DNA of 64,000 nt from Zavarzinia marina. Lineage in GTDB: Bacteria; Pseudomonadota; Alphaproteobacteria; Zavarziniales; Zavarziniaceae. The notes under the pieces are model-generated. The model worked only from the letters and a program-made list of their open reading frames with translations, had not been told where the DNA came from and did no database searches. Shown here piece after piece: positions 3,583 through 45,326 of this stretch. Made by a program: the position numbers and the translations under genes. The stretch spans positions 186,001-250,000 of the forward strand of contig NZ_JAKGSB010000001.1 in NCBI RefSeq assembly GCF_021568905.1, read 5' to 3'. The stretch's first letter is position 1; each line of letters starts with the position of its first letter.

Positions 3583-3602
3583 CAGCCCATCCCCCCACGC
3601 GC

Positions 3603-3842
3603 GTCATCCCCCACACGAGTCATCCCCCACACGCGTCATCCCCCACGCGCGTCATCCTCCACGCGCGTCATCCCCCACACGCGTCATCCCGGCGAAGGCC
3701 GGGATCTCGTGACGAGAAGGCGCCCTTACATCGAAAGATCCCGGCCTTCGCCGGGATGACGCAGAAGTGAGGACGCTGAAGTGAGGACGCTGAAGTGAGG
3801 ACGCTGAAGTGAGGACGCTGAATTGATGACGCGGAAGTGAGG
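3603..3842. repeat. Palindromic element flanked by two tandem-repeat arrays
   Basis: The core is a perfect 25-bp inverted repeat (3682-3706 and 3737-3761, ends CGTCATCCCGGC), each arm itself a hairpin, with a 30-bp spacer beginning TCGTGACGAGAA. To its left are five 16-bp units (3603-3682) built on GTCATCCCCCACRCGC. To its right are four exact 14-bp units GAAGTGAGGACGCT (3764-3819), a diverged fifth and a partial sixth. The array fills the convergent space between the GMC gene and the aminotransferase-like gene. Related arms lie at 15628, 45245 and 55589. Confidence 0.85.
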
Positions 3843-3848
3843 AGGCGT

Positions 3849-4760
3849 TTACGCCCCCTCGGCGTCGCGCAGGCGGCGGTAGAAGGTGCTCAGCGCCTCG
3901 GTCACCGGGCCGGGGCGGCCGTTGCCGATGGGGCGGCCGTCCAGCATGGTGGCGGGGGTGATGCCGCCGAAGGTGCCGGTGACGAAGGCTTCGTCGGCAT
4001 TGGCGACGTCGGACAGCGCGAAGTTCCGCGTCTCGATGCGCAGGTTGTTCTTCTGCGCCAGTTCGATCACATGGGCGCGGGTGATGCCGTTGAAGCAATA
4101 GTCGCCGGTCGAGGTCAGCACGCGCCCACCCTTGACCATGAAGAAATTGGTCGCGTTGCACGACGAGACGAAACCATGGGGGTCCAGCATCAGGGCTTCG
4201 TCGGCCCCCGCCTTGATGGCGTGATTGAGCGCGATGATCAGATTGAGGCGCGAATGGCTGTTCAGGCGCATGTCGAACATGTCGGCCGGCGAACAGCGGA
4301 TCGGCACCGACGCGAGATGCAGACCGCGCTCGAACAGCGCCGCCGAGGGTTCCTTCCATTCGGCGACGATGACCAGGGTCGCGGGGCCGACGGTCATGCG
4401 CGGGTCCTGGTTCGGTGTCTTCTTCAGGCCGCGTGTGACCATCAGGCGGATATGGACGCCGTCGGCCATGTTGTTGGCGACCACGGTCTCGTAGAGCGCC
4501 GCCGCCAGTTCGATCCGGCTGCGCCCGATGTCGAGCCCGATCGCCCGGGCGCCGGCGAAGAGACGGTCGAGGTGGCGGTCCATGAAGGCGATCCGGCCCC
4601 GGATCAGGCGAAAGCCCTCCCAGACGCCGTCGCCCAGCACGAAGCCCGCGTCGAAGACCGAGACCTTGGCCTCGGCGCGCGGCACCAGGGCGCCGTTCAG
4701 ATAGATCAGCACGCTCTCGTTGCGGGGATCGTCGGCGTAGGACTGGCTGCCGATGGACAT
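3849..4760 (-). CDS. Class IV aminotransferase-fold protein, apparently lacking the PLP lysine
   Basis: A 303-residue protein with the full-length fold of branched-chain/D-amino-acid aminotransferases: VFDAGFVLGDGVWEG at 35-49, GADEALMLD near 185, NFFMVKGG near 205 and GITR near 224. In the family the pyridoxal-phosphate Schiff-base lysine sits at the start of KxxNRLxN. Here that stretch reads NSHSRLNL, so residue 167 is Asn (codon AAC). The glutamate of the VTE motif is also replaced, by Ser200. Ordinary transamination is therefore doubtful. The gene starts one base after the stop of the sulfotransferase-like gene (TGACATG), which implies coupling. Plant 'BCAT-like' proteins join similar domains, as I recall. 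Confidence 0.8.
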   Translation of the reverse strand: MSIGSQSYADDPRNESVLIYLNGALVPRAEAKVSVFDAGFVLGDGVWEGFRLIRGRIAFMDRHLDRLFAGARAIGLDIGRSRIELAAALYETVVANNMADGVHIRLMVTRGLKKTPNQDPRMTVGPATLVIVAEWKEPSAALFERGLHLASVPIRCSPADMFDMRLNSHSRLNLIIALNHAIKAGADEALMLDPHGFVSSCNATNFFMVKGGRVLTSTGDYCFNGITRAHVIELAQKNNLRIETRNFALSDVANADEAFVTGTFGGITPATMLDGRPIGNGRPGPVTEALSTFYRRLRDAEGA

Positions 4761-4761
4761 G

Positions 4762-5502
4762 TCAGGCTGCTCCGGTCAGGCGATGGGCGCGCAGGCGCTC
4801 GTAATGGGGGCGGGCGGTCTCGATCAGGGCCTCGAAGCCGGGCGGCGGCGGCTTGGCCGGCCCGGGCGGGCTGAAGCCGGTCGTGGCCTCGACGGCACCA
4901 TACCAATGATCGGCCCAGATCCCGTCCGTGTCGCGCCGGCCCTTCGGCCAGGACAGCATGGCGGGATCGAAGGGAATGCCGACGGCGGCGCAGAGCGCGC
5001 GGAGCATGGCTTCGGGAGCGGCCTGGACGTCGCGCCCTTCGATCACCGGGGGCGCATGGCCGAGGCGGTCGGCGGCGCGCTCGAAGATCTCCGCCTGTTC
5101 GACGATGCCGATGTCGGCCAGCGTCACCGTCTCCCGCTTCTCGAGATAGGAGGCGATCACTTCCACCGGATCGCGGATCAGGAAGCAATGGTTCAGGCGG
5201 TCGAGGACGCCACGGTCCACCTGCGGCAGCAGATGATGGCTCATGTGCTTCTGGTAGTGGATCGCGCCCCTGGCGATCGGGCCCGCGGTCAGGCCCGCCA
5301 TCACCGATCGCCAGTCGCAGTCCATGGCGGCGACGATCGTCTCGCGGCCCGGATGATCGGCGCCGGTCGCGGCCAGATAGAAGCCGTAGAGAGGCTCGTC
5401 CACGACCGTGGTGTCGGTCCGGTTCTCGAAGGCGCGCATCATGGCGGTCGAGATGTTGCGCGGGCCCGACCACATGGCGAGGCGCAGCACCGCCTCGGTC
5501 AT
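4762..5502 (-). CDS. Sulfotransferase-like P-loop protein
   Basis: A 246-residue protein. The N-terminal WSGPRNISTAMMRAFENR (residues 11-28) resembles the 5'-phosphosulfate loop of PAPS-dependent sulfotransferases, and FLIRDPVEVIASYLEKRE near 112-126 resembles the 3'-phosphate motif (RDP...S). This supports a sulfotransferase fold; the acceptor is unknown. Usual sulfotransferases are somewhat longer, and the Cys/Gln-containing variant loop is absent here. It lies 13 bp after nadK and is directly coupled to the aminotransferase-fold gene. The pairing is the main clue to function. Confidence 0.75.
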   Translation of the reverse strand: MTEAVLRLAMWSGPRNISTAMMRAFENRTDTTVVDEPLYGFYLAATGADHPGRETIVAAMDCDWRSVMAGLTAGPIARGAIHYQKHMSHHLLPQVDRGVLDRLNHCFLIRDPVEVIASYLEKRETVTLADIGIVEQAEIFERAADRLGHAPPVIEGRDVQAAPEAMLRALCAAVGIPFDPAMLSWPKGRRDTDGIWADHWYGAVEATTGFSPPGPAKPPPPGFEALIETARPHYERLRAHRLTGAA

Positions 5503-5515
5503 GACAGGGGGGCCG

Positions 5516-6295
5516 TCATGGCGCGAATTGTTCCATGAGGATGCGTTCGCCGAGGGCGCCGCCCGGATCGAACAGCAGCTTCAGGGTGATCTCGCGGTCT
5601 TCCTCGATCTCGACCTCGGCGACGTCGCGCACCTCGGCATTGTCGGCGACGGCGGAGACGGGGCGCTTGTCGCCGCCCTGGGCCTCGACCCGCACCACCG
5701 CCTCGTGGTGCAGCAGGGCGCCGCGCCAGCGCCGGGGCCGGAAGGCGGAGATCGGGGTCAGCGCCAGCACGCCCGCGTTCAAGGGCAGGATCGGGCCATG
5801 GGCCGAGAGATTATAGGCCGTGCTGCCCGCCGGTGTCGCCAGCAGCAGCCCGTCGCAGGTCAGCGAATCGAGACGCATGCGGTTGTCGACGAAGATGCGC
5901 AGCTTGGCCGCCTGATGGGTCTCGCGGAACAGGGAGACTTCGTTGATGGCCAGCGCCTCGTGGATGCGGCCGCTGCGGGTACGCGCCTTCATGCGCAGCG
6001 GATGCAGGCTCGAACTCTCCGCGACCGACAGGCGCAACAGCAGATCGTCCTCGGCATAGGGGTTCATCAGGAAGCCGAGGGTGCCCTGGTTCATGCCGTA
6101 GATCGGCAGGTGCCCCTTGCCCAGATCTTCCTCCATGACCCTGTGCAGGGTCGAGAGCATGAGCCCGTCGCCGCCCAGCGCCACGATGACGTCGGCATTG
6201 GCGCCGGCCTCGCCATAACGGTGGCGCAGGCGCTGCAGGGCGGCCTGGGCTTCCAGCGTGTCGGAAGCGACGAAGGTGATACGGTCGCGGGCCAT
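5516..6295 (-). CDS. nadK: NAD kinase
   Basis: A 259-residue enzyme that phosphorylates NAD to NADP with ATP (or polyphosphate) in the cytoplasm. The diagnostic GGDG is at residues 41-44 within VIVALGGDG, followed by [11 protein letters not shown], the INEVSLFR motif and [16 protein letters not shown], all typical of the short alphaproteobacterial form. It is the second gene of a minus-strand set beginning with moaA 25 bp upstream. Both genes are basic metabolism; the two downstream genes are not normally linked to NADP synthesis. Confidence 0.93.
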
Positions 6296-45244: not shown

Positions 45245-45326
45245 CGTCGTCCCGGCGAACACCGGGATCTTCCCCAGGCAAATGCACCTTTCTCGTCGCG
45301 AGATCCCGGCCGGCGCCGGGATGACG
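45245..45326. repeat. Second complete CGTCATCCCGGC paired palindrome, reverse orientation
   Basis: Two arms, 45245-45269 and 45302-45326, face each other as in the element at 3682-3761, with a 32-bp spacer. Read on the minus strand, the spacer starts TCGCGACGAGAA, nearly the same as TCGTGACGAGAA in the first copy, so the element has a direction and this copy is inverted. The arms have diverged (the left carries GAACA). It lies between yhhQ and the adenine deaminase gene. Confidence 0.75.

Follow-up and report, generated by a model that had tools for sequence, protein, structure and literature searches.

A class IV aminotransferase-fold protein without the cofactor lysine, encoded beside a sulfotransferase-like gene or an amino-acid importer

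The stretch of Zavarzinia marina DNA analysed here (the window, 64,000 nucleotides) encodes a class IV aminotransferase-fold protein (AT) in which asparagine stands in place of the lysine that should hold pyridoxal phosphate (PLP), and the gene directly upstream encodes a putative sulfotransferase (ST). By alignment and tree, AT belongs to a distinct, monophyletic lysine-less family, that of PDB entry 7z79, and at most of the loci examined the gene for this protein adjoins either ST or an amino-acid ABC importer, with no locus that has both. The lysine-less state of an orthologue was already known to others from PDB entries 7z79 and 9j32; they had evidently noticed it, since an N174K mutant of the 7z79 protein was deposited as 9j32. 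What is new is the alternative partnership of AT with a sulfotransferase or an importer. Our best explanation, to which we give a probability of roughly 0.4, is that AT and ST serve one small-molecule pathway, in which AT would handle an amino-acid-type compound that some lineages sulfonate and others import.

Layout of the locus

The genes follow one another in the order moaA, nadK, ST, AT (Table 1), and a single base separates the last two, with ST upstream (TGA-C-ATG). A reading of this DNA made from the letters alone, which we call the sequence-only reading, had described this TGACATG junction behind moaA and nadK, and its coordinates, strands and lengths hold. In Pfam, AT matches PF01063 (E 1.1e-41, 143.6 bits; cut-off 28.5) and ST matches PF19798 (E 7.1e-62, 209.2 bits; cut-off 23.2). 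The nadK gene may be co-transcribed with the ST–AT pair. We rejected moaA and nadK as conserved partners: among 173 loci, of which some are short, they lie near AT in just two, the window and a locus from the same genus (L278). In another genome of the genus (G004, locus L276), ST and AT do not adjoin and are about 5 kb apart.

Table 1. Genes and key codons of the locus, in window positions
Feature	Position	Strand	Basis or remark
AT, class IV aminotransferase-fold protein, 303 aa	3849..4760	minus	PF01063 and motif NSHSRLN, Asn167, Ser200
ST, Sulfotransfer_5 (PF19798) protein, 246 aa	4762..5502	minus	family match and sulfotransferase fold
AT codon 167, AAC (Asn), Schiff-base lysine position	4260..4262	minus	
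AT codon 200, TCG (Ser), pyridine-nitrogen Glu position	4161..4163	minus	
nadK	5516..6295	minus	NCBIfam PRK04761, above cut-off; 13 bases before ST
moaA	6321..7484	minus	TIGR02666, above cut-off; upstream of nadK

The lysine-less family

Three protein searches found AT orthologues that stand clearly apart from the other class IV proteins. Among the relatives, 48 of 60 genomes gave some match and 11 gave one at E 1e-78 or better; in the class sample, AT was found in 34 of 241 genomes at E 1e-50; and in the phylum sample, 52 of 397 genomes passed E 1e-45, two of them (E 1e-47 and 3e-46) with lysine-bearing relatives. From the class and phylum samples we took all family members, at one locus per genome, except those of the same-genus genomes G001 and G003; this gave a set of 75 loci, in which the window's own genome is the sole representative of the same-genus genomes G000–G005. 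Another set, of 80 loci, holds the best 80 of 564 and were drawn with peptide patterns that included NSHS[RK]LN; because these were preselected on that motif, our statements on conservation rest on the 75-locus set. The alignment and tree, with 85 lysine-less and 25 lysine-bearing rows, do include pattern-drawn loci, and 7z79 is not a row of the tree. A larger set of 173 loci holds some species twice and some loci that are short.

All 85 lysine-less rows lie on one side of a branch that separates them from the 25 lysine-bearing rows with 100% SH-aLRT support, in a tree built by a quick method, with support by SH-aLRT alone and some long outgroup branches. On the other side of that branch, class IV rows have lysine at position 167 in 25 of 25 cases and glutamate at position 200 in 24 of 25, and the four nearest relatives examined (38–39% identity) retain both residues. 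Plasmid-borne copies of AT have Asn167 in 15 of 15 cases. The loss of the PLP lysine is a trait of the family as a whole. Public plasmid records mostly call its members "aminotransferase class IV", a label that is likely to mislead, since the family is without the residue that every ordinary transaminase uses. One family member in the pattern-drawn set lies on a 10.9-kb contig of Segeticoccus rhizosphaerae (L120), Actinomycetota by its record name, where contamination is possible; the other named records of that set are mostly from Proteobacteria.

The cofactor site

AT has the full class IV aminotransferase fold: its predicted model reaches Z scores of 32–41 to 50 PDB entries, among the matches listed. 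It nevertheless scores under the curated cut-off for all 19 listed NCBIfam models that it matches, the best being PRK08320 (242.9 vs 363) and ilvE_I (193.4 vs 245.55). Asn167 aligns unambiguously with the PLP lysine of 5cm0, and in 9j32 (2025), the mutant orthologue, the introduced lysine falls in exactly the Asn167 column; both comparisons bear out the earlier proposal that an AAC codon occupies the PLP-lysine site. Alignment likewise places Ser200, encoded by TCG, in the column of the pyridine-binding glutamate, as had been suggested. Neither ordinary residue is found in the family, where position 167 is asparagine in 75 of 75 orthologues (the window included) and position 200 is threonine in 60, serine in 15 and glutamate in none.

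The sequence-only reading had asked whether a lysine nearby might fit the Schiff-base position. No nearby lysine takes over, because positions 161–174 are free of lysine in 36 of the 85 family rows, the window among them, and this segment has no column that is always lysine. The best lysine column elsewhere is position 113, with 79 lysines and 6 arginines, and since no lysine is invariant in the 85 rows we rule out a relocated Schiff-base lysine.

The other end of the site looks quite different. The residues of the PLP phosphate cup, whose roles we take over from E. coli IlvE and D-amino-acid transaminase (an Arg, G-I-T and a Thr), are nearly all fixed: Arg66, Gly225 and Thr227 are each present in 75 of 75 orthologues, and position 263 is threonine in 72 and serine in 3. 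Around the lost lysine the family motif is NSHS[RK]LN, with few variants; His169 is present in 73 of 75 orthologues and replaced by leucine in 2. A cysteine occurs at position 201 or 204 in 74 of 75, with cysteine and threonine swapping places between the two positions. In the alignment, Trp47, His103, Glu134, Asn202 and Ser217 are fixed within the lysine-less family and rare outside it. Because the cup residues are conserved while positions 167 and 200 have changed and new residues have become fixed, the old cofactor site seems to have kept its phosphate end and had its chemistry end replaced, with the contact roles assigned from IlvE and D-amino-acid transaminase. Judging from the fold, a rebuilt pocket would be lined by Asn167, His169, Ser170, Ser/Thr200, Cys201 or Cys204, Asn202, Trp47, His103 and Glu134.

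The sulfotransferase partner

ST is predicted with a mean pLDDT of 94.8 to adopt a sulfotransferase fold, for which the best match is 4gox (Z 13.9, rmsd 3.9 over 218 residues). It contains the P-loop-like motif WSGPRN.S as well as R.P.....S, to both of which we assign PAPS-binding roles by presumption, and in an alignment of 56 rows, two of them partial, W11, S12, G13, P14, R15, N16 and S18 as well as R110, P112 and S118 are invariant. Family, fold and motifs together point to a putative PAPS-type sulfotransferase.

With a profile built from trimmed domains, ST was found in 25 genomes of the class sample at E 1e-30, and all 25 lie within the 34 of 241 genomes that have AT at E 1e-50 (hypergeometric probability 8e-27, uncorrected for kinship). 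In the 75-locus set, 47 loci have ST at most 3.5 kb from AT, 42 of them in the order AT–ST and 5 in the order ST–AT, as in the window; a third, divergent arrangement, with ST on the opposite strand and on the other side of AT, occurs in three loci of Alteromonadaceae that are not among the 75 (L089, L106 and L111). These counts agree with the earlier proposal of a conserved two-gene unit, and the pair is spread over many Proteobacteria. ST is present but unlinked to AT in 16 of the 75 genomes (G047, G083, G149, G180 and 12 more), and in the other 12 no ST passes the cut-offs applied, which means that AT can function in its absence. The one genome found with ST and no detected AT is G058, from the relatives set, whose assembly is incomplete (87%). 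We found no ST–AT fusion among the ORFs of the bacterial loci L001–L168.

APS kinase, which makes PAPS, was detected in 29 of the 34 AT genomes, vs 6 of 14 control genomes. The five misses are the window's own genome, G010 and G040, in which ST is present, and G049 and G087, in which it is absent. In the window's genome, APS kinase is seen only as a 31-residue C-terminal end at bases 3–95 of two contigs (C1 and C15), as if a repeated cysNC-like gene had been broken by the assembly.

The importer as an alternative partner

In 11 of the 75 loci, AT is adjoined by a complete amino-acid ABC importer, consisting of a binding protein, two permeases and an ATPase, which is encoded on the same strand and is followed by AT. 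The partner at the 75 loci is thus ST in 47, the importer in 11, both in none and neither in 17, an exclusion with a chance probability of 4e-6, uncorrected for kinship. The 173-locus set, in which some species are repeated, gives 104 ST-type loci, 34 importer-type loci (counting L195, whose importer genes are dispersed and lie on the opposite strand) and none with both. Importer-type loci occur in 9 of the 12 genomes without ST vs 2 of the 63 with it (Fisher 9e-8, again uncorrected for kinship); the remaining 3 of the 12 (G246, G577 and G109) have no adjoining importer either. A strict rule that importer genomes lack ST fails, in that 2 of the 11 (G558 and G560) carry an unlinked ST, and the exclusion therefore holds per locus rather than per genome.

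The best tree of ST-type and importer-type rows requires at least 8 changes of state, and the importer label must have changed at least 5 times even when only well-supported branches are counted, so the switch between partners was not one event. A kinship-corrected pair test of the exclusion, with few pairs available, gave a median p of 0.5. The AT motif does not change with the partner, and for this reason AT seems to do the same job in both settings.

Plasmids add further examples, drawn from 15 of 20 AT-bearing plasmid records (that of Azospirillum B510 is unannotated). The importer adjoins AT in Agrobacterium, Paracoccus pantotrophus, Thioclava, Pantoea, Palleronia, Mameliella, Marinovum and Yoonia; it has another gene order relative to AT in Pseudomonas savastanoi and is divergent in Paracoccus yeei. 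Elsewhere the neighbourhood differs: a TRAP transporter rather than an ABC importer lies beside AT in Dinoroseobacter, a TRAP-type neighbour with a TAXI-type binding protein in Paracoccus seriniphilus, no adjoining transporter in Ruegeria and scattered, non-adjoining importer genes in Paroceanicella.

Within 8 kb of AT, the 34 importer-type loci contain a GntR-family regulator (12 loci), a PrpD family member (7), ProC (5), a chloride channel (4), a sulfatase (2) and a member of the ornithine-cyclodeaminase (OCD) family (1), whereas none of these occurs within 8 kb in the 104 ST-type loci. The reference set for this survey was taken from plasmid loci, which biases it toward importer-type loci, and some loci are short. 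The survey is also incomplete, in that 9 of 20 neighbour ORFs matched Pfam and 11 did not, some of the latter perhaps being shadow frames. The cyclic-imine reductases (ProC and OCD) and chloride channels near AT, few as they are, hint at proline-like or anion-releasing substrates. Four loci (L189, L191, L192 and L211) have an operon that combines the amino-acid ABC importer, lysine-less AT, a ClC chloride channel and ProC, with a GntR regulator in three of the four, which suggests that an amino acid is taken up and that breaking it down frees an anion. On the Mameliella alba plasmid pKUB257 (L197, 4986–9628), AT overlaps a choline-sulfatase gene (TIGR03417, above cut-off), which in turn adjoins genes for a DHDPS-like protein and an FAD amino-acid dehydrogenase, and a gene of the proline racemase family lies farther along. 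In Yoonia, a sulfatase lies further from AT beside a ProX-type importer, to which it may belong. We treat a sulfate-ester substrate, suggested by the choline-sulfatase context in Mameliella and Yoonia, as a lead only.

Related structures and proteins

The closest structure to AT is the Variovorax paradoxus aminotransferase-like protein (7z79, 2022), with 54% identity over 299 residues, Z 41.4 and rmsd 1.4. This protein, which we know from its title and sequence, has in common with AT the asparagine and the NSHSRLN and SCN.TNFF motifs. It differs from the window's AT in its motif FDLRLNSHSRLNLIQ, that of a branch in which ST accompanies only 2 of 21 loci and the importer many. The archaeal branched-chain aminotransferases (Geoglobus 5cm0 and 5e25, Archaeoglobus 5mqz) have AT's fold at 38–40% identity and Z about 37; 5cm0, the one compared residue by residue, retains the PLP lysine and glutamate where AT has Asn167 and Ser200. 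D-amino-acid transaminase also has this fold, and its E177S mutant is, by title, 1g2w. D-amino-acid transaminase keeps its lysine and works as a PLP enzyme, and from a match of numbering we take the natural Ser200 of AT to correspond to the serine of that mutant.

ST resembles in fold OlsST (4gox), the CurM sulfotransferase (4gbm) and tyrosylprotein sulfotransferase (5wrj), with Z scores of 13.9, 13.5 and 13.7, at just 11–16% identity to these solved structures. The sequence-only reading also pointed to plant "branched-chain-amino-acid aminotransferase-like" proteins, which are reported to carry an N-terminal sulfotransferase-like domain and so to combine both kinds of domain. PF19798 is among nine profiles that were applied to plants in one study, in whose main text the word "aminotransferase" is absent (PMC12506393). 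Among open papers, we found none on 7z79, the N174K mutant, the bacterial ST–AT pair or the function of PF19798, and none on the importer alternative or the fixed new pocket, although importer pairing was not itself a search topic.

Possible function of AT

That the lysine was lost through decay or a strain mutation, and that the pairing is ordinary gene order, deserves next to no credence. In favour of this, the AAC codon is one base from lysine, but asparagine is found in 75 of 75 loci, one per genome, and in all 15 plasmid loci, which rules out the strain mutation raised in the sequence-only reading; the lysine-less rows form one clade, a structure of an orthologue with asparagine exists (7z79), and ST and AT are linked in three gene orders. 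It is harder to judge whether AT is a catalytically dead pseudoenzyme, which would bind an amino or keto acid and sense it, act as a scaffold, exert control or present substrate to ST or the importer. The loss of the two residues on which catalysis by the parent fold depends, the switch of partner from ST to importer and the GntR-family regulator within 8 kb of 12 of 34 importer-type and 0 of 104 ST-type loci (in the plasmid-derived reference set) would all fit such a protein. We nonetheless find it doubtful, given that the family has fixed polar residues beyond those of its lysine-bearing relatives (N167, H169, N202, H103, E134 and, in 74 of 75, the cysteine of positions 201/204), that the AT motif is unchanged beside the importer and that ST is unlinked in 16 of 75 genomes, which is less expected of a stable subunit.

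Alternatively, AT might be a transaminase or lyase with non-covalently bound PLP or pyridoxamine phosphate (PMP), in which His169 or another residue stands in for the lysine; this possibility overlaps our best explanation and, taken by itself, seems unlikely. There are precedents for parts of it: in the sugar 3-dehydratases ColD and E1 the lysine is replaced by histidine, and fold type II PLP enzymes have serine or threonine at the pyridine nitrogen, which the Ser/Thr at position 200 resembles. The retention of the phosphate residues (R66, G225 and T227 in all 75 orthologues, T263 in 72 with serine in the other 3) and of His169 in 73 of 75 points the same way, but His169 gives way to leucine in 2 of 75 and the phosphate cup could hold another phosphate.

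Our best explanation, a pathway shared by AT and ST, draws on their co-occurrence, their adjacency in three arrangements and the switching of partners. The AT family would have given up Schiff-base PLP chemistry and retained the cup that holds a phosphate. AT would bind an amino-acid-type compound, probably next to a ligand that carries a phosphate (PLP or PMP held non-covalently, or some other phosphate), and would then perform a lysine-independent step on that compound. ST would make or consume AT's compound by sulfonation, before or after AT's step, and lineages without ST would obtain the compound through the amino-acid ABC importer encoded beside AT. Counted against this explanation are the 12 AT genomes without ST, 3 of them with no adjoining importer either, the two importer-type genomes with an unlinked ST, G058 with its ST and no AT, the ST genomes with no detected APS kinase (G010 and G040) or just the end of one (the window's own), and the three plasmid loci in which AT lies beside TRAP-type transporters or no transporter. 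We read AT as either a lysine-independent enzyme (with non-covalent PLP or PMP, or with no PLP at all) or a binding protein; its chemistry is probably of a new kind, because the lysine is lost, the rest of the pocket is kept and the protein is tied to ST or an importer. The sequence-only reading had proposed a two-part enzyme in which the fold has a new role. The lasting loss of the lysine and the tight coupling to ST favour this proposal; the part that fails is that AT should always be half of a pair, since 12 of 75 AT genomes have no ST at these cut-offs and 9 of these 12 have the importer instead. Its further suggestion that AT shapes a sulfated product we keep as a hypothesis.

A more specific version of the shared pathway, which we hold to be improbable, makes AT a lysine-free enzyme acting on sulfonated or sulfonatable amino-acid-type compounds, with Asn167, His169, Ser170 and the swapping cysteine as its catalytic set and the compound made by ST in most lineages and imported in others. 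If true, AT would define a new class of enzyme, and organic sulfate would have a route not seen before. The existence of two kinds of partner gives a direct handle on the substrate of AT and on the chemistry of the lysine-free fold. If the plant fusion belongs to the same family, what the family does would also matter for understanding a plant protein.

Repeats downstream of AT

Just downstream of AT, at 3592–3690, 3682–3761 and 3758–3843, two tandem arrays surround two inverted copies of a palindromic element of 25 bases, CGTCATCCCGGCGAAGGCCGGGATC. The units of the arrays are a 16-base sequence, CCCCCACACGCGTCAT, and a 14-base sequence, GACGCTGAAGTGAG. Two weaker copies occur elsewhere in the window, at 45245–45326.
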